NCBI GenBank assembly: GCA_945868085.1
Contig: CAMBKF010000023.1
Span: forward strand, 1 to 32,602
From: an uncultured Oscillibacter sp.
Lineage (GTDB): Bacteria; Bacillota; Clostridia; Oscillospirales; Oscillospiraceae
DNA length: 32,602 nucleotides
Direction of reading: 5' to 3'
Both the position numbers and the translations under genes were made by a program. This document shows, in pieces, positions 5,318-13,037 of the stretch. Numbering within the stretch: position 1 is the stretch's first letter; the number at the start of each line of letters is the position of its first letter. The notes under the pieces were generated by a model. The model searched no databases, was not told the origin of the DNA, and was given only the letters and a program-made list of their open reading frames with translations.

Positions 5318-6022
5318 ATGATGTTGACAGCGGAGATCGGAGCGAAGATCAAATATTACCGGAAAAAGCGAGGCCTGAAGATCGCGGAGCTGGCGGAGCT
5401 GCTGCACAAGACCGGGGCCACCGTGTCCAAATACGAGAGCGGGCAGATCGCCATAGATGTGGTGACGCTGTATGAGATCGCGGCGACCCTGGGCGTGCCG
5501 CCGGAGAAGCTGCTGTACTACGCGCCCATGCCCGCAGAGGAGCTGGAGGCCGACAGCGTGCCGGCCTTTTTCCGGGGCGTGGAGCGGCTGTACATGTACT
5601 ATTTCGACGGGCGCAATGGCAGTCTGGTCCGCAGTGTCATCGACATCCGGGCCAAGACCGGCCCCCACACCTACGACGTGGCTCTGTACATGAATTTCCA
5701 GGATTACCGGCAGTATCAGAACTGCGAAAACACATATCTGGGCGCCCTCAGCCACTACGACGCCCTGAGCAATATCGTCACCCACAACCGGGATACGGAG
5801 ATGGACATATACCTGGTGTGCGTGCCTGCGTCCTATCTGAACGCCGGGACAAAGTGGGGCCAGGGCTTCGGCATTTCCTGCCGGCCTATTATGCCCACCT
5901 CTACCAAGGTGTTTCTGTCCAAAACCATACAGGCCGAGACGCCGGAGTTTTTGCAGGACCTGCGCGTGTCCAAGGAGGACATCCAGCTGCTGAAGCGGTA
6001 CAATATGCTGTCGGTGATGTAA
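5318..6022 (+). CDS. XRE family transcriptional regulator
   Basis: The 234-residue protein has an N-terminal XRE helix-turn-helix (about 7-62; LKIAELAELLHKTGATVSKYESGQ) and a C-terminal region of about 160 residues that I do not recognise. The C-terminal half is rich in Tyr and Asp and could bind a ligand. A GAGGAAAG site precedes tandem ATG codons at 5318 and 5321. It is divergent from the MalY/PatB-like gene across about 200 bp, an arrangement that usually means the regulator controls its neighbour and itself. The gene stops only about 50 bp before the left end of the mobile island, so its own terminator has been split by that insertion. Confidence 0.8.
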   Translation: MMLTAEIGAKIKYYRKKRGLKIAELAELLHKTGATVSKYESGQIAIDVVTLYEIAATLGVPPEKLLYYAPMPAEELEADSVPAFFRGVERLYMYYFDGRNGSLVRSVIDIRAKTGPHTYDVALYMNFQDYRQYQNCENTYLGALSHYDALSNIVTHNRDTEMDIYLVCVPASYLNAGTKWGQGFGISCRPIMPTSTKVFLSKTIQAETPEFLQDLRVSKEDIQLLKRYNMLSVM

Positions 6023-6069
6023 GGCAGCGAGTTCCGGCAGCCGGTTCTTTTCAAAAAAGAAATCCCATC
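6023..6069. repeat. Left fragment of a duplicated tRNA-Gly terminator unit
   Basis: The stretch GGCAGCGAGTTCCGGCA through AAAAAAGAAATCCCATC matches 12894-12941 with a few differences. It contains the 5' arm of a terminator whose 3' arm is found 6.7 kb away, at 12768-12783. This shows where the island was inserted. Confidence 0.75.
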
Positions 6070-6095
6070 CTTTTGCTACGGACTAATAACGAAGT
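6070..6095 (+). repeat. Left end (attL-like) of the island
   Basis: CTTTTG (6070-6075), then ten bases, then ATAACGAAGT (6086-6095). The geometry is mirrored exactly at the right end. Confidence 0.7.
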
Positions 6096-6134
6096 ATTGA
6101 ACACAATGAGTTATCAGGCGTAGCGAGGGCAAGG

Positions 6135-6185
6135 AAAAATCGCCAAGATTAGTCTATTGCAGACTTTTCTTGGTGATTTTCTTTT
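6135..6185 (+). terminator. Terminator-like long hairpin near the island's left end
   Basis: AAAATCGCCAAGA...AGTCT pairs with AGACT...TCTTGGTGATTTT and is followed by CTTTTATT. It would stop transcription entering the element from the host XRE gene. Confidence 0.7.
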
Positions 6186-6254
6186 ATTCGCACATTCGAT
6201 TTTCGTTATTCCTCCTGCTACAATGATTGCAGAAATGCAAAGGAGGAACTGCGT

Positions 6255-6368
6255 ATGAAGCAGAAATACTATGTGGAACTGAACCGCCAGGAATGGCGGC
6301 TTATCATTGAGGGGCTGAACCGATTCCGCAACAAGCTGATTGCAGCAGAGCCGCAGAAGCTGTATTAG
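6255..6368 (+). pseudogene. Small mobile-element-associated protein, probably frameshifted
   Basis: A GGAGGAACTGCGT ribosome site precedes an ATG ORF of 37 codons beginning MKQKYYVELNRQEWRL. This opening resembles, from memory, a small conserved protein common in Clostridia conjugative elements. The frame ends early at 6366-6368. In another frame, from 6356 to 6391, the reading EAVLDEIIFTI follows, which looks like the missing continuation, so a one- or two-base indel near 6350 is likely. Function is unknown. It is inside the island next to its left end. Confidence 0.5.
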
Positions 6369-6397
6369 ACGAAATCATTTTTACGATTTAACTAATA

Positions 6398-6434
6398 AGG
6401 AAATCGCCGCTTCAGTTCTTCGGAAGCGGCGATT
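6398..6434 (-). terminator. Terminator of the TauE/MMPL transcription unit
   Basis: AATCGCCGCTTC (6402-6413) pairs perfectly with GAAGCGGCGATT (6423-6434). On the minus strand it is followed by TTTCCTTATT. It lies 11 bp after the TauE stop codon. Confidence 0.85.
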
Positions 6435-6444
6435 ATTGCTATGC

Positions 6445-7218
6445 TTACAGCACCTTAATGAGGATCGTAGCAACACCCAAAATCGTCAGCACGACACCGA
6501 CGATCTTATTGAGCCTTGTGATCTCGCACTTGTTGGCGAATTTGGCCGACACCAGCGCACCCAGCAGACAGGAAATCACCACGATCAGCATGGGAACAGG
6601 GAAAATCTGTGCGCCCATAGAAATGTGACTGACAGCGCCGGTCAGGGCAACCAGCGTCATGACCATTGTGCTGGTTCCCACAGCGACTTTCAGGTTATAG
6701 CCCAGCACCAGCGAGAACACCATCAGCATCAGCACACCGCCGCCGCTGCCGGTGAAGCCGCAGACCCAGCCGATGACACAGCCCAGCAACACAGCCCGAA
6801 CGGTTTTCCGGGTGGCATCGGAGGGCTTCGCCATCGCATCTGTACCGCCGTTCATGGGCTTAATCAGAAATTTGATGCCCAGCAGGATAGTGGTCGCCAT
6901 GGAGAGGTAGCCCAGTCCATCCGGGTTGCTGCGGCTGAACAGATACCCGCAGTAGCTTCCCAGTACCGTTCCGAGAAATGCAGTGAGTGTAACCAATGCA
7001 CCACGCCGCAGGTCGATATTCCTGTTTTTATAGTAAGTATAAGCGGACAGCAGACTTGCCAGCACATCGGAGGCCAGCGCCACCGTTACGGCATCATAGC
7101 TGGCCCAGCCGCACAGACTGACCAGCATAGGCGTGATGATGACCGCCGCAGAAAGGCCCGCAAGCCCGGTAACAACGCCGGCTCCCAGTCCGGCTAAAAT
7201 ATAAATGACATAAACCAT
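6445..7218 (-). CDS. TauE/SafE (DUF81) family permease
   Basis: The 257-residue protein has about eight hydrophobic segments and the two typical half-repeats, each opening with a small-residue-rich helix (GLGAGVVTGLAGLSAAVI near residue 10 and VIGWVCGFTGSGGGVLM in the second half). The family moves sulfite, sulfoacetate or related organic-sulfur anions across the membrane, generally as exporters. It is the last gene of the leftward unit, about 20 bp after a small basic protein. No strong ribosome site precedes the ATG. The substrate cannot be told from sequence; being beside an MMPL cluster does not indicate sulfur metabolism. Confidence 0.85.
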   Translation of the reverse strand: MVYVIYILAGLGAGVVTGLAGLSAAVIITPMLVSLCGWASYDAVTVALASDVLASLLSAYTYYKNRNIDLRRGALVTLTAFLGTVLGSYCGYLFSRSNPDGLGYLSMATTILLGIKFLIKPMNGGTDAMAKPSDATRKTVRAVLLGCVIGWVCGFTGSGGGVLMLMVFSLVLGYNLKVAVGTSTMVMTLVALTGAVSHISMGAQIFPVPMLIVVISCLLGALVSAKFANKCEITRLNKIVGVVLTILGVATILIKVL

Positions 7219-7238
7219 AGTTATCTTTTCATCTCGAA

Positions 7239-7532
7239 TTAAAAATGTATTTCATTCCGTCTGCCGCGGCGAGCGTCCCTGCGCGCCCGAAGTTTTTCGT
7301 GGCGCAAGGGCACACTTTCCACAACAGGGGGTGTTTCTTCTTCGCTGCCATGCTGGCCAGCCTTGATCTTCTTAACCGTTTTTGATGCTTTGAGTGCCGT
7401 GACCCAAATCGGCATTCTGAAATGGTAGAGCAGCATCAAGAGGTGGACAAGGATCCATTTGACCGCTTTAGGCAGCATTTTCGGCAGCTTTTCTTCTATT
7501 TTTGCTTTTACCGACTCAAAATCAACGGACAT
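7239..7532 (-). CDS. Small membrane-associated basic protein, unknown
   Basis: The 97-residue protein has a hydrophobic stretch (about residues 22-48, including ILVHLLMLLYH) and a strongly basic C-terminus (RARRDARRGRR). The ATG at 7532 is preceded by AGAGG; the upstream ATG at 7550 would place that site inside the gene. It lies 32 bp after the coiled-coil protein and about 20 bp before the TauE-like gene, so it is part of the same leftward operon. I do not recognise it. A role as a small partner of the MMPL exporter is possible but unsupported. Confidence 0.65.
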   Translation of the reverse strand: MSVDFESVKAKIEEKLPKMLPKAVKWILVHLLMLLYHFRMPIWVTALKASKTVKKIKAGQHGSEEETPPVVESVPLRHEKLRARRDARRGRRNEIHF

Positions 7533-7564
7533 AACGGAACCTCTTTTCAACTTTGCCTACTTGT

Positions 7565-9442
7565 TTATCGCAGCCCAAACAACGCCAGCAAGCGATCCCA
7601 GAAGGAAAGATGTTCTTCCTCGGCGGCAAAGGAAACGGTTTCAGGCAGTTCTACGCCGTCGGTGGAGATCACGAACTGTACGGAGCGGATGTTCTCATTC
7701 CGGCTGTCGGTAAAGGAAACGGCGTCATAATCGGAGCTGCTGTACTGCTCCATCATCTCGTCGATGGTGTCCTGTATTTTGCCGGGGATCTGACTGACTC
7801 CATCGGCAAATTCGTTCATGCCGTCTGCAAATGTGCCTGCGCCGTCGGCCAGAGAGCCGGTGCCGCCGGTGTAATCCCGCAGACCGCTGTGAAATGCGCC
7901 GTAATTTCCGGACAAGGTCTGAATCCCCTCCGCATAGGCGCAAAGTCCGCCGTGAAAGTCCGCATAGCCTGCGGAGAGCTCGGCAAGACCGGAGCGGAGC
8001 TGTCCGAGCATGGCTTCTATATCCTCATCGCCCAGCGCATCGGTCATGGAGGCGGACATGGTGTGCAGCGTTGCCGATACCGTTCCGATACCGGAAATCA
8101 CAGAGGTTTCACCGCTTGCATCCAGCGCACCGCTCACCGCCTGAAAGGCCGGCTTTACATTGTTCCACACGGCGACCAAGGTCTGGTATTGCTGATAGGC
8201 TTGCAGCAGCTTTTGATAACCGGACAGCGCGGAGGGATCAGCAGCGCAGGCAGCCTGCATGGCAGCCAGTTCCTCCTGTGTCGGTGCGGATACCACCCCG
8301 TTCTGCACGGCACCGTCCATGGCCTGATAGGCGGTATCAAAGCCCTCTTTCAGCTGGCCGAGTCCCGCTGAGAGCTGATCCAGCGCTCCGGAGAGTTGTT
8401 CCAGTCCACCGGGAAGCTGCGAAAGCTGGGAAAGACCGCTGAGGTCAGCCTGTGCAAGCTGGGTGCTGATGGCGGAAAGGGCGCTGCTAAACTGTGCCGA
8501 GGCATCCACAATGGACTGTGAATTGCTGCTCAACGCCGAAAGCCCATCCTGTATCTGCGCCGAACCGTCCAATACAGAGCCGCCACCGTCGTTCAGCTTG
8601 CGGATGCCGTCCAGCAGTTCCTTTGCACCGTCGTTCAGCTGCTTGGCAGCATCGGTCAATTCCGAAAACTGACTGGTCAGGTCGTCGGTGTCAAAGCCGT
8701 CCATATCCACGCTGATGCTGTACGGAACGGCTGCGATGGAGAAACCGGACATGGAGAAATTCTGCACATCCGCTTCGATGGTGAAGTCGGCATCCGCACC
8801 GGGCAGCACGGTGAAGGAAAGCTGCGTGCCGTCCCCGGCATCAGCCATGGTCGCACCGGGTGCCTGAATATTGGCACAGGTGTCATTATCCAGCGTCAGG
8901 GACACCTGCATCACATAATTGTCACTGAACACAGCGTCGGCCTTTGGATTTTTCTTGCCTTGGAAGTGAATCTTCAAAGCGCCGGACTTGCCGCCCAGTT
9001 CCTTCGGCGTGACGGTTTTTCCGTCCAGTGTATAGGTGATCTGAAAATTCCAAGGCAGCTCTGCCGTGGTCATATTCCCCTGATAGTAGAAGTTTCCGGC
9101 CTGCGCTGAGAAGCGGACAGCACCATCTTTTGCAGTAAGGCTCTCGGTAGTGGAGAGGTTCGTCACATCGGAGAAGCTGCCGTAATCGGTGATCTCTCCG
9201 GCCTTATTGACACGGAAGTGGTTGACGATATAAGCGCCGTTTGCCGAGCCGTCGGCGCTGAGCCGGGCATAGACATTCTCGGTTTTGGTGTAGTCGGCAT
9301 TCCCGACTGCTGCGGTGGACACCGTCAGCGATGAATTGCTGCCGGTATCATTTTCCTGCGCATAAGCGGTGCTCACTGTGCCGAGCAGCAGCACGGCACT
9401 GAGTAAAACAGCGGCCCCTTTTTGAACTTTATTCCGAAACAT
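7565..9442 (-). CDS. Secreted coiled-coil protein, YhgE/Pip-like, partner of MMPL
   Basis: The 625-residue protein has a signal peptide (FRNKVQKG then a hydrophobic core, cleavage predicted after AYA near residue 28), a beta-rich region to about 250, and a long helical region with repeated LxxG/LxDG-type units (about 260-500; for example LNDGAKELLDGIRKLNDG), like the extracellular part of YhgE/Pip proteins. The true ATG is at 9442 because GGAGGAAC lies between it and the upstream ATG at 9469. It overlaps the 3' end of the MMPL gene by 14 bp, indicating coupled translation. I infer an extracytoplasmic accessory for the exporter; the transported molecule is unknown. Confidence 0.8.
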   Translation of the reverse strand: MFRNKVQKGAAVLLSAVLLLGTVSTAYAQENDTGSNSSLTVSTAAVGNADYTKTENVYARLSADGSANGAYIVNHFRVNKAGEITDYGSFSDVTNLSTTESLTAKDGAVRFSAQAGNFYYQGNMTTAELPWNFQITYTLDGKTVTPKELGGKSGALKIHFQGKKNPKADAVFSDNYVMQVSLTLDNDTCANIQAPGATMADAGDGTQLSFTVLPGADADFTIEADVQNFSMSGFSIAAVPYSISVDMDGFDTDDLTSQFSELTDAAKQLNDGAKELLDGIRKLNDGGGSVLDGSAQIQDGLSALSSNSQSIVDASAQFSSALSAISTQLAQADLSGLSQLSQLPGGLEQLSGALDQLSAGLGQLKEGFDTAYQAMDGAVQNGVVSAPTQEELAAMQAACAADPSALSGYQKLLQAYQQYQTLVAVWNNVKPAFQAVSGALDASGETSVISGIGTVSATLHTMSASMTDALGDEDIEAMLGQLRSGLAELSAGYADFHGGLCAYAEGIQTLSGNYGAFHSGLRDYTGGTGSLADGAGTFADGMNEFADGVSQIPGKIQDTIDEMMEQYSSSDYDAVSFTDSRNENIRSVQFVISTDGVELPETVSFAAEEEHLSFWDRLLALFGLR

Positions 9443-11492
9443 TTTGAAGTTCCTCCTTCTTTTTGCCAAAGTGAAATGTGGTGTGAGGGATCAGCGGGTC
9501 GATGATCAGCAGGAATGTGGGCAGAAGCAGCACCACCATCAGGATCGCCAGAATAGCGCCCCTGCAGATCAGCCCGCCCAGCACCTTGACCACCTCATTA
9601 GAGGACGACCAGTTCAGGCAGAAGCCGGACAGCGACAGCGTTGCTGCCGAAATGAGGATCGAGCCAAACACATCGCCCAGCGTTTTGATCATCGCCGGTT
9701 TCTTTTGCAGCGTTTTCCGGTTGGCGAGATAGGTATTCGTCAGCAGGATCGCATAGTCGATAGTGGCACCCATCTGCACCGTGCTGATAATCAGATAGCC
9801 CAGATAACTGAGGCTGCTGCCCGCGAAATACGGGATGCACATATTCAGCCAGATGGAGCACTCGATGGCGAGGATCAGGAAGATCGGCATCAGCCAGTTT
9901 CGGGTCATCAGCAGCAGAATGAGATAGATGCTGACCACCGTGATGATCGTAACAACGGTATTGTCGTGCTGCACGCAGGTCTTGATGTCGTACATATTGG
10001 CGCTCTGACCGCAGAGATACCACGAATCCGGATAGTATTCCTCGGCAGTCTGCTGGACGCTCTCCACCATGGCAAAGGCTTCGTCGCCTTCATAGGCACA
10101 GTCCGAGGAGAGAATGATGCGGGCATAATCGTCCGAATAGAACTGATCCACAATGGAACTATCCAGGTAAGCAGCGGGGATCTTGTTGCTTACCATCGTG
10201 GCATAAGAGGTAACGGAGGTGATGTGGTCGAGGTCGTTCAGCGCATCGCACATCTGCACCTCTTTGGCGCTGTCACCCCTGGGCACCAACAGCACGGCGC
10301 TGTTGGTCACGCCGAACTCCTGCTGGGTGTCCCACGCTTCGCTGCCCTCCACGGTCTTTTCACTGGAGCCATAAAAATAGCTGTTGTGGCTCTGTCCCAG
10401 AAACGCCGGGAGCATCAAAAGCAGGATCAGGCAGAACACCGGAATACGGATCTTTGAGATACCCTTGCCGATATTCTGGAAGGTGGGTGTCAGACGGCGG
10501 TGCTTCGTCTTTTCGATGAGCTTGTTGCCGCACAGCAGCAGCGCCGGGAAGAATACCATCACGCTGATAAAGCTGATCAGGATCCCGATCACAAGACTGA
10601 TGCCCATATCCGCACCGATCTTGAAATTCATAAACAGCAGCGCCACAAAGCCGAACAAAGTGGTCAGCATACTGGCTCCGATGGAATTGACCGATGCGGT
10701 CATGGCAAAGCGCATGGCACGCTTTGGCTCCATCCCCAGTTTTTTATAGCTTTCAAAGCTGTGGGACAGGAAAATCGCATAGTCCAAAGATACGGCGATC
10801 TGCAGGACCGGGGCGGCGGCCAGCGTTACAAAGCTGATCTCCCCACGGAAGAAATTCGCCCCCAGATTGATAAGCACCGGCGTGCCGATGTTCATCAAGT
10901 AAAAGAACGGCTCGATCCAGCTTTCCGTCACAAGGATCAGAATCAGGATCGTCACCGGGATAATGAGGACGATCGCCTTCATGGCTTCGGAAACGGCCAT
11001 ATCCTGCGAAGTGGCCTGATCGGCTGCCGAGCCGGACACCTTGCAGTCCCCAATGGCGCTTCGTATAGAGGCAATGGCGGTGCGCTCCTGCCCATCCTCC
11101 ACGGAAACCATATACAGGGCATTGCCGTCCTTATAATAGGTTTCCACTGTCGCTGTGTCCTGCACCTGAAGGGGCGTTTGCAGGTTCACGGTATCGTCCA
11201 GCCAAAGCACCTCTTTTACATAGTCGGCACTCGCGATCTGCTCCTTAATGTCCAACGCCTGCGTCAGGCTGACATTTTCGACCATGACATTCAGGTTCGG
11301 AAGCGGCTGGTCAAATTCCTCCTGCATCAGATTCAATGCTTTGGTGGAGTTTGCATCCTCCGGCAGGTAATCCATCATGTTGTAGTTTACCGGGGTCAGC
11401 AAAAACAGCAGCACGCCCACCAGCGATACTGCTACAAAAGTGATGATGATTGACTTTTTATGTCGATCAACAAATTCAGATAGCCATCTCAA
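9429..11492 (-). CDS. MMPL/RND family exporter
   Basis: The protein of about 687 residues has the duplicated RND layout: one N-terminal helix, an outside domain, five to six helices (from about VLIIPVTILILILVTESW), a second outside domain and a final helix bundle. RND/MMPL proteins export lipids, fatty acids or drugs using the proton gradient. GGAAGGAG precedes a TTG at 11492; the ATG at 11519 would put that ribosome site inside the gene, so I prefer TTG, with moderate confidence. It is the first gene of the leftward operon, divergent from a TetR gene that almost certainly regulates it. The length is ordinary for the Firmicute subgroup. Confidence 0.85.
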   Translation of the reverse strand: MRWLSEFVDRHKKSIIITFVAVSLVGVLLFLLTPVNYNMMDYLPEDANSTKALNLMQEEFDQPLPNLNVMVENVSLTQALDIKEQIASADYVKEVLWLDDTVNLQTPLQVQDTATVETYYKDGNALYMVSVEDGQERTAIASIRSAIGDCKVSGSAADQATSQDMAVSEAMKAIVLIIPVTILILILVTESWIEPFFYLMNIGTPVLINLGANFFRGEISFVTLAAAPVLQIAVSLDYAIFLSHSFESYKKLGMEPKRAMRFAMTASVNSIGASMLTTLFGFVALLFMNFKIGADMGISLVIGILISFISVMVFFPALLLCGNKLIEKTKHRRLTPTFQNIGKGISKIRIPVFCLILLLMLPAFLGQSHNSYFYGSSEKTVEGSEAWDTQQEFGVTNSAVLLVPRGDSAKEVQMCDALNDLDHITSVTSYATMVSNKIPAAYLDSSIVDQFYSDDYARIILSSDCAYEGDEAFAMVESVQQTAEEYYPDSWYLCGQSANMYDIKTCVQHDNTVVTIITVVSIYLILLLMTRNWLMPIFLILAIECSIWLNMCIPYFAGSSLSYLGYLIISTVQMGATIDYAILLTNTYLANRKTLQKKPAMIKTLGDVFGSILISAATLSLSGFCLNWSSSNEVVKVLGGLICRGAILAILMVVLLLPTFLLIIDPLIPHTTFHFGKKKEELQNVSE

Positions 11493-11541
11493 AACAGGTT
11501 CTCCTTCCATGCTCAACACGCCGATTTATCTTGCACAGGTG

Positions 11542-11570
11542 TTGACTTTTATCCATATGTGCATTATACT
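11542..11570 (+). promoter_or_regulatory. TetR promoter overlapping the leftward MMPL promoter
   Basis: TTGACT (11542-11547) and TATACT (11565-11570) are separated by 17 bp, reading toward tetR. On the other strand TATAAT (11568-11563) is a likely -10 for the MMPL operon, though its -35 is poor. The two -10 boxes overlap, so only one polymerase can bind at a time. The palindrome TGTTTG-TTCG-CAAACA at 11611-11626 in the tetR leader may be an operator. Confidence 0.65.
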
Positions 11571-11661
11571 AAGTGAAGAACGAGAACACAATATTCAATT
11601 TCGTACAGTTTGTTTGTTCGCAAACAGATGTGCAAAATGTGTTCAAGAAAGTGGTGAGTTC

Positions 11662-12228
11662 ATGAAAAATTCAAATTTAGACCGGCGCACCAAGTATTCT
11701 CTGCGGGTAATTCGTGCTGCCATGTTTGAACTTCTGGAAACCAAATCATTGGATGCTGTTACTGTCACGGACATCTGCGCCAAAGCTGATGTGAATCGGG
11801 GAACTTTCTATAAATACTATCGGGATGTGTATGACCTGTTTGAAAAGACACAGGATGAATTCATAGACAAGCTCCATACGCTTTTTGAGGAAACGCAGGC
11901 TACCGGTTCCGAAATGCCGGATTTCTTCACCAGCGTGTTCCGCATTCTCTCCGAAAACAAGGAACTGGTGCAGGTGGCCCGCAACCGGGAGTTTACCGAG
12001 CAGTTCACAAAAAAGCTGCTGGTTTTCGTGCTGCCACAGATCAATCAGCTGATCGCCAATTCCGATCCACGTGCATCCGAAGAAAAGATTCGATTCCTCT
12101 CCGAGTACATCATGGGCGGCTGTACCCGTGTGGTGGCGGCATGGATCGGAGAGAATATGACCGTTCCCGCCGACCGCATGGATCGATATATCACGGAGTT
12201 TATCAAAAAGACCTTACAGATCGCATAA
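11662..12228 (+). CDS. TetR family repressor of the MMPL operon
   Basis: The 188-residue protein has an N-terminal TetR helix-turn-helix (about 34-53; VTVTDICAKADVNRGTFYKYY) and a helical C-terminal ligand domain. The start at 11662 follows GTGGTGAG; upstream in-frame codons belong to the leader. It is divergent from the MMPL gene over a shared promoter region, the normal arrangement for repressor-exporter pairs. Its stop codon is joined directly, with no gap, to the stump of a serine recombinase in the same frame, which suggests that cargo was placed in, or a deletion ran through, the recombinase gene. Confidence 0.9.
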   Translation: MKNSNLDRRTKYSLRVIRAAMFELLETKSLDAVTVTDICAKADVNRGTFYKYYRDVYDLFEKTQDEFIDKLHTLFEETQATGSEMPDFFTSVFRILSENKELVQVARNREFTEQFTKKLLVFVLPQINQLIANSDPRASEEKIRFLSEYIMGGCTRVVAAWIGENMTVPADRMDRYITEFIKKTLQIA

Positions 12229-12690
12229 GCGAGAGAAAAAGTGAAGCAGACCATTTCTACAAGTGAGCGGCGCATCCAAGCCATCGACAAGGCCATCGAA
12301 GGACTTTTTGAGGCGAATATCTCCGGAAAAATCACCGATGAGCGTTTCACAAAAATGACCGCCAACTACAAAAAGGAGCAGAGAGAACTGCTGGAACTCG
12401 TAGCTGATGGCAAGAAAAAGCTGCTGGATGCGGAGCAAATCAAGGTGGATTTGAGGCTGCTGATGAAAGCACCGCGGGACTATACAGACATTCGGCAGCT
12501 TACGCCGGAAATCGTCAATGCGCTGATTCGCCGTATTGAAGTCCACAGCAAGGATAAGGAGACCAAGAAGGTTAAGGTCGATATTTATTTCACTGCCGTG
12601 GGGCTGTTCACACTCCCTACGGGAAAGGAAATGCAGGCGGCATTGGAGGAGATCCGTCAAAACCCACAGCAGTTCAAGATTTCTGCATAA
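12229..12690 (+). pseudogene. C-terminal stump of a large serine recombinase (DUF4368-type)
   Basis: About 150 residues are open (AREKVKQTIS...QQFKISA). They match the C-terminal end of Tn4451/TnpX-like large serine recombinases: a coiled-coil pattern (RRIQAIDKAIEGLFEANISGK), the ITDERFTKM motif, and TPEIVNALIRRIEVH followed by a short beta segment ending in LFTLPTGKEM. The N-terminal catalytic domain with its serine, the recombinase domain and the zinc ribbon are absent, so the product cannot recombine DNA. A GTG at 12241 could start translation but it lacks a good ribosome site. It is next to the right end of the island, as expected for the element's own recombinase. Confidence 0.8.
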
Positions 12691-12698
12691 AGCAGAAC

Positions 12699-12730
12699 AC
12701 GGTGCAGCCCCTTTTCAGAGACTGCACCGT
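12699..12730 (+). terminator. Hairpin after the recombinase stump
   Basis: ACGGTGCAG (12699-12707) pairs perfectly with CTGCACCGT (12722-12730). There is no T tract, so this is a weak terminator at best or an end structure of the element. Confidence 0.4.
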
Positions 12731-12742
12731 ATCCTACATAAA

Positions 12743-12768
12743 ACTTCGTTATCCACCCGACGCTTTTG
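12743..12768 (-). repeat. Right end (attR-like) of the island
   Basis: ACTTCGTTAT (12743-12752), ten bases, then CTTTTG (12763-12768). Read inward it mirrors the left end exactly. Confidence 0.7.
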
Positions 12769-12812
12769 GATGGGGATTCTTTTTGGAGCGGGCGACGAGG
12801 CTCGAACTCGCT
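12768..12812 (-). pseudogene. Duplicated 3' end of tRNA-Gly with terminator arm
   Basis: These 45 bp are identical to 12946-12990: the right terminator arm plus CCA end, acceptor strand and T arm of tRNA-Gly, 178 bp from the intact copy. The rest of the gene (anticodon and D arms) is absent and replaced by unrelated sequence containing a GCGAATGG/CCATTCGC hairpin. It is a remnant of a duplication or an earlier attachment site. Confidence 0.8.
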
Positions 12813-12923
12813 TCCCGGCATCCCGCGAATGGCTACCGCCATTCGCAGGAACCCTACCGGACCTCCTGATTTCATGTGCTTCGCACGGGTCGAGGCAGCG
12901 AGTTCCGGCAATCTGGTTTTTTC

Positions 12924-12962
12924 AAAAAGAAATCCCCATCCTTTCGGATGGGGATTCTTTTT
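12924..12962 (-). terminator. Terminator of tRNA-Gly
   Basis: On the minus strand AAAGAATCCCCATCC pairs with GGATGGGGATTTCTTT around GAAA, followed by TTTTT. It abuts the CCA end of tRNA-Gly. Confidence 0.9.
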
Positions 12963-13037
12963 GGAGCGGGCGACGAGGCTCGAACTCGCTACCTCGACCT
13001 TGGCAAGGTCGCGCTCTACCAGATGAGCTACGCCCGC
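12962..13037 (-). tRNA. tRNA-Gly (GCC)
   Basis: The 76-nt minus-strand gene has the acceptor GCGGGCG paired with CGCCCGC, an encoded CCA, and the anticodon GCC in the loop CTTGCCAAG. Its terminator unit is duplicated next door, and the duplicate was the target of the 6.7-kb island. Confidence 0.95.

Follow-up and report, generated by a model that had tools for sequence, protein, structure and literature searches.

A remnant serine-recombinase island in a split terminator beside tRNA-Gly, and the likely use of intrinsic terminators as targets by its DUF4368 recombinase clade

INTRODUCTION

Large serine recombinases (LSRs) carrying a DUF4368 domain have been described as a multi-targeting clade, of which one member, Cp36, prefers sites that are A-rich, then have an AA core and then become T-rich (Durrant et al. 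2022, PMC10083194). Low target specificity has also been attributed to Tn4451, a clostridial element driven by an LSR (review PMC5704250). For the serine integrase of the A118 family, T is strongly favored at half-site positions 17 to 19 of attB, and a putative zinc-ribbon motif lies at positions 16 to 24 in attP (Rutherford et al. 2013, PMC3783163). Statements on published work refer throughout to the available parts of the papers cited. Here, we analyze an island found at positions 6070-12768 of a contig of an uncultured Oscillibacter sp. (the whole stretch of 32,602 nucleotides is called the window), which ends with a fragment of a DUF4368 LSR and interrupts a transcription terminator next to a tRNA-Gly gene. 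We are fairly confident that it is a remnant of a serine-recombinase integrative (mobilizable) element, that its DUF4368-LSR clade inserts mostly at intrinsic terminators, and that the element exchanges the terminator that it splits for terminators of its own.

RESULTS AND DISCUSSION

The island splits a terminator

Both ends of the island carry the core CTTTTG and, separated from it by exactly 10 bases, the arm ATAACGAAGT, in inverted orientation (coordinates in Table 1). This 10-mer has only these two exact copies in the 32.6-kb window and did not occur at all across 100 shuffles of the window. Joined in a circle, the ends would give a 46-bp site (arm-N10-CTTTTG-N10-arm), i.e., symmetric attP arms around a short common core. 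The flanks joined at the core form a terminator hairpin of -22.4 kcal/mol (z of -4.0, with 1 of 200 shuffles equally good), like the intact native terminator beside the tRNA-Gly gene (-28.5 kcal/mol, z of -7.0), while an invented control sequence gave a z of -0.55 in the fold test. The arms, spacing and cores are all where an earlier note on this DNA had placed them, and its reconstruction of attB and attP is upheld by the symmetric join and by the folding of the flanks.

A second copy of the tRNA-Gly 3' end and its terminator stands in tandem with the first, and the island interrupts the terminator of this copy; the own terminator of the tRNA-Gly gene is unbroken. Tandem copies of the tRNA-Gly 3' end, terminator and linker number two in the window (12786-12900 and 6022-6073) and three in a related genome, G001 (L027, 4220-4640). 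They may be scars that earlier tRNA-targeting integrations left behind, and any of them could serve as a new terminator target.

The vicinity of tRNA-Gly with its tandem 3'-end fragments would also suit a usual tRNA-gene island of a tyrosine integrase, for which the terminator would be incidental. However, the junction is in the terminator loop and not in the tRNA, no tyrosine integrase was found among the six island proteins scanned (Pfam), the recombinase fragment and the arms match serine-recombinase elements, and only 3 of the 73 right flanks of relatives (see below) have a tRNA within 300 bases. We rejected this origin, which appears extremely improbable.

A sister insertion and full-length relatives

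Genome G001 has a related end pair at another locus, with DNA identities to the window of 74% at the left arm and 87% at the recombinase end. It also lies inside a terminator, although a different one (AAAAAATGGCACCCG...CGGGTGCCATTTTTT; fold z of -6.0). The open reading frames (ORFs) enclosed by these ends are quite different from those of the window island, and the two cargo islands look independent because their recombinase fragments begin at different residues. Given this second insertion, the location in a terminator is no coincidence. A third end of the same family is found in G001 (L026, 7814-8040); AAAAAAGCCAGTCAGAG lies outside its arm, and the inner side has a recombinase remnant.

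A full-length LSR that is 91% identical to the window fragment over its 149 residues was found at locus L049 of genome G071. It contains Resolvase, Recombinase, Zn-ribbon and DUF4368 domains and adjoins genes for a MobA/VirD2 relaxase, a NikA-like protein, ParB and an actin-like protein, which resembles the arrangement of an integrative mobilizable element; the left end of the G071 element was not found. The window's own genome holds a second recombinase of the DUF4368 type (L056 8616-10373, G000:C3), which is full length, 57% identical to that of L049 and followed by the right flank GGTATCGGGGTTTTCCGG.

T-runs at the right flanks of the family

To survey the clade, we searched 394 genomes of the order, with matches in 122 at an E value of at most 1e-100, and the contig scan took the best 80 of 211 confirmed recombinase loci. 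A recognizable right arm was present at 101 of the 120 recombinase loci examined, which gave 79 distinct right flanks; close relatives of the recombinase thus occupy different target loci, as do the window and G001 copies. Setting aside one lineage of six flanks, with CTGGCGACAGC ends, leaves 73. Within +3 to +20 of the core, runs of at least four, five and six T's were found in 62, 54 and 44 of these 73, against 12.2%, 4.5% and 1.4%, respectively, at random positions of the same loci. The runs of four start at positions 6 to 16, mostly 7 to 11. That the T-run might belong to the element was considered and ruled out: elements that share an end have different flanks, and empty sites contain the run as well.

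The class-wide search covered 391 genomes and gave matches in 45 at an E value of at most 1e-120, of which 28 loci were examined. Ten had a recognizable arm (two of them, L225 and L226, repeat L120 and L126), and 9 of the 10 flanks had at least four T's. Among distant members (37 to 47% identity), a T5 run follows 50 to 130 bases after the stop codon in 21 of 28 loci (not deduplicated; background of 16%), and six distant loci with a different conserved end (TCCTAA) all have a variable stretch and then T4 to T7. These distant members bear the same sign, as would be expected from clade-wide terminator targeting. Two distant recombinases (L161 and L163) have right ends with an identical, non-terminator flank, CAGAAGCTACGCAC, and are perhaps a site-specific offshoot.

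The earlier note had counted the same arms at unrelated places inside genes as a sign against its reading. Elements with arms of this kind do occur at unrelated places, most of which are again terminators; the CTGGCGACAGC lineage and L049, however, lie outside terminators.

Complementary end pairs and the crossover

We recovered 23 left ends, each paired with a right end of the same genome. Those of the window and of G001a came from blast, those of L060, L064 and L100 from in-locus searches and that of L110 from a scan for the arm plus motif. A left-end search of 53 genomes gave 20 places in 17 of them, and 13 of these places start like an arm, with TAAGG(A/C)(A/T)GTA. For one (G547), a usable right end was missing; of the remaining 12, 10 pair. 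In a further search of 19 genomes, 24 places appeared in 15, of which 5 served as left ends (4 of them pair). The other 19 comprised 5 right ends, 2 duplicates and 12 that we discarded because of poor arms or context (4 of the 12 uninspected). Genome G581 has two recombinase right ends (L131 and L136), and its left end was paired with L131.

When all 23 right ends were ranked, the own right end was the best complement of the left end in 18 cases and the second best in 2, and 100,000 permutations never yielded a sum as high as the observed one. The pairs at L060, L064 and L100 had been ranked by complementarity and are circular in this test; repeated without them, it gave 17 of 20 (16 best and 1 second best) and again 0 of 100,000 permutations. 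Core positions 3 and 4 agree between the left and right sides in every one of the 20 complementary pairs and in 22 of the 23 overall. Among the 20, this central dinucleotide is AA or TT in 18, CA in one and AT in one. The match fits the 2-bp crossover of a serine recombinase in or beside the loop. Chance as the cause of these patterns is ruled out by the arm shuffles, the T-run background and the pairing permutations.

Empty sites in relatives

Relatives without the island were expected by the earlier note to carry the rejoined terminator. At the tRNA-Gly locus of same-genus relatives there are 19 places with a T-run directly before the tRNA-Gly 3' sequence (one genome is listed twice), and inspection by eye found the whole hairpin at 18; it stays while the sequence of its stem differs among many relatives. 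The expectation also held for the element of G256, which has about 11.6 kb between its flanks. We looked for the 260-base joined flank in 8 genomes of its genus, and G293 (91% over 2-166) and G226 (78% over 2-153) match across the junction, with an intact hairpin in both, while three genomes match part of the left flank only and two have no match. It failed in part in G001, where two island-free copies have the tandem tRNA-fragment context of the island's right flank, one with the whole hairpin and the other without it. For the G332 site, two of the five other genomes of the genus match, at the right flank only (G371 and G415, 77% each); these candidate empty sites have intact terminators of other sequence before the G332-type right flank. 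A pattern search of the window's own genome found no copies of the empty hairpin beyond the native one. Beside the tRNA-Gly locus of genome G002, a stretch (L028, 5533-5594) matches the interior of the island's left end at 80% and may be what is left of another insertion at this site.

Sequence tract or hairpin

The logo of the right flanks contains only 0.02 to 0.20 bits at the first eight positions, which form the stem, and 0.8 to 1.3 bits in the T-tract, at flank positions 10 to 14 (half-site positions of about 13 to 17). Stem positions nearly devoid of information next to an informative tract are what would be expected if the recombinase recognized just a loose sequence motif (A-rich, AA or TT core, T-rich) and the hairpin played no part. 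The published Cp36 motif has the same form (PMC10083194), and the sites of L064 and G146 show little inner pairing in the register used. This possibility is a serious one, to which we give somewhat less than an even chance. Against it stands the frequency of hairpins. The fetched contigs, 1.17 Mb in all, contain 7473 sites at which an A-run, an AA or TT core and a T-run are in place, and 2.0% of these sites have hairpins; among the insertion sites that satisfy this tract rule, hairpins are present at 15 of 17 (13 of 14 when the three circular pairs are omitted). Outside ORFs, the background rises to 82 of 1507 similar sites, so that hairpins accompany 2 to 5% of the A/T-motif sites in contigs. 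Even in the strictest motif class, hairpins are present at 11 of 15 insertions and at 32 of 232 background sites outside ORFs. The half-sites thus covary without being conserved, which argues for more than an A/T motif. To our knowledge, covariation without conservation in a DNA target would be unusual for a serine recombinase.

The terminators could instead be what selection has left, if integration were nearly random in A/T-rich DNA and harmful insertions were lost. Terminators should indeed be harmless sites for an insertion, and the elements carry their own terminators. However, fitness hardly explains why the T-tract keeps so narrow a phase to the crossover or why so few of the similar sites outside ORFs have hairpins. 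We regard such survivorship as unlikely.

Terminators inside the element ends

An inward-facing terminator is found about 50 to 150 bases inside the left end in 22 of 24 cases, compared with 80 of 600 random windows; in the remaining two left ends, inspection revealed a hairpin whose T-tail is weaker. At the right end, a hairpin lies between the recombinase stop codon and the arm in 52 of 67 distinct ends (a count made with no background run), and of these, 36 have a tail that is T-rich on the inward-facing strand and 3 one that is T-rich on the outward strand. This hairpin (GGTGCAGYC...GRCTGCACC type) keeps its fold while the sequence varies in relatives, and it could also be regulatory.

Taken together, these features make it likely that clade members with DUF4368 LSRs integrate mostly at intrinsic transcription terminators. 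The junctions show that crossover takes place at two base pairs, usually AA or TT, which lie inside the hairpin loop or adjoin it. The T-tract on each side of the terminator is most likely read as an attB half-site, at positions of about +13 to +17, probably by the zinc-ribbon domain, and the dyad stem would hold the two tracts at a symmetric distance. The splitting of the host terminator would be made harmless by the inward-facing terminators just inside the element ends, structures that many members have and that would replace the split one, terminator for terminator. Terminators are frequent in bacterial genomes and not bound to any one gene, and if our explanation is true, they would offer mobile elements a host-neutral landing place.

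Several observations weigh against it. Eleven of the 73 flanks have no run of four T's (several have T3), among them that of L049, the closest full-length LSR, which is in a non-terminator site shortly before an ATG and without a T-run. In the CTGGCGACAGC lineage, only one of the six distinct flanks has one, and since part of the flanks come from related recombinases, not all of them are independent. Three of the 23 end pairs (G569, G559 and G567, kept in the count) are not complementary; two of these have the central dinucleotide in common on both sides and may be true pairs at non-hairpin sites. The excess of hairpins shrinks to about fivefold in the strictest motif class, the right-end hairpin of the window is without a clear T-tail, and a hairpin is missing from one of the two copies in G001 that share the tandem context of the island. 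Finally, the window island is itself a remnant without a catalytic domain, and all the data are genome assemblies, with the empty sites coming from relatives and not from strain-level before-and-after pairs.

Contents and decay of the island

In the recombinase fragment of the window, DUF4368 (E of 1.9e-15) is the sole Pfam domain; the catalytic, recombinase and zinc-ribbon domains are missing in the Pfam scan. The island is a remnant because only this end of the LSR remains. No relaxase was found among the six island proteins scanned (Pfam). The cargo of exporters and a TetR regulator takes up nearly all the space between the ends save the LSR fragment, from which we infer that the island has lost its mobility, or could be mobilized only in trans.

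Table 1 Coordinates of the island, its target and neighboring features in the window
Feature	Position	Strand	Remarks
Left half of split terminator	6053..6070		A-run plus stem AAAAAAGAAATCCCATCC; pairs with 12768-12784
Left core copy	6070..6075		CTTTTG, central dinucleotide TT
N10 of left attP half	6076..6085		Probable contact region of the recombinase domain, after Rutherford 2013 (PMC3783163)
Left arm	6086..6095	+	ATAACGAAGT; putative linker/zinc-ribbon motif
Inward-facing terminator near left end	6136..6190	+	Hairpin 6136-6180, then CTTTTATTCG
Small left-end ORF remnant	6255..6368	+	37 codons; region also in L025
Cargo: TauE/SafE-type exporter	6445..7218	-	PF01925 (Pfam)
Cargo: 103-aa protein	7239..7550	-	Without Pfam family
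Cargo: 634-aa protein	7565..9469	-	xxxLxxG heptad repeats (TIGR03057); without Pfam family
Cargo: MMPL-family transporter	9429..11519	-	PF03176
Cargo: TetR-family regulator	11662..12228	+	Pfam
C-terminal 149 aa of LSR	12241..12690	+	DUF4368 only
Hairpin between recombinase stop and right arm	12699..12730	-	Weak tail GTTCTGCT in window copy
Right arm	12743..12752	-	ATAACGAAGT on minus strand
N10 of right attP half	12753..12762		
Right core copy	12763..12768		CTTTTG
Right half of split terminator	12768..12784		GGATGGGGATTC plus T-run 12780-12784
Intact native tRNA-Gly terminator	12924..12962		Model of empty site
tRNA-Gly (GCC)	12962..13037	-	

Comparison with described elements

Tn4451 and Tn5397 (TnpX and TndX) resemble the present family in being LSR-driven mobile elements of clostridia. 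Their crossover dinucleotide is GA; the core is TT in the window and mostly AA or TT in its relatives. The integrase of Tn916 is of the tyrosine type. Tn916 nevertheless has a palindromic target consensus of A/T tracts and an inward terminator near its left end that acts as an insulator (PMC12084037, PMC11658703), but its target runs from T-rich to A-rich (TTTTTA....AAAAA), opposite to the order found here.

The IME_Rho_tet elements (Sidibe et al. 2026, PMC12904643) are likewise elements of gut Bacillota that combine a serine recombinase with relaxase/MobC and have terminal inverted repeats, and their 3' boundary is 81 to 90 bp after the recombinase stop codon. However, their reported target is often a small MAFF2 ORF (116 of 256), while the window island is in a terminator beside tRNA-Gly and has no tetracycline (tet) ribosomal-protection gene among the Pfam families of its cargo. 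The lineage with CTGGCGACAGC ends may be related to them. In the model for the A118 family, there is one defined sequence, whereas only the T-tract is constant here (PMC3783163); by analogy, a similar reading of the tract by the zinc ribbon is plausible.

As far as these texts are available, the words terminator, hairpin and palindrom are absent from the main text of PMC10083194, terminator and hairpin from PMC13137831 and terminator from the main text of PMC12904643. A literature search of open-licence papers gave, among the matches listed, no report of terminators as serine-recombinase targets. Multi-targeting by DUF4368 LSRs is already known; what is apparently new, as far as the literature search shows, is the terminator as the target. 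The recombinases of Durrant et al. (e.g., Cp36) share with the family described here the DUF4368 domain, the many insertion places and an AA/TT core with A-rich and T-rich flanks, but they were described with loose sequence motifs, (PMC10083194), in contrast to the sites here, which we read as intrinsic terminators with a complementary dyad. Our findings also matter for genome engineering, for which recombinases of this clade are under development as tools (PMC10083194, PMC13137831). It may equally well be true or false that the published multi-targeting DUF4368 LSRs are, as a clade, terminator-targeting integrases that read a variable inverted repeat with A/T tracts, with a swap that keeps both neighbors terminated. 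Their multi-targeting, so far loosely explained, would then become a concrete and testable target rule.

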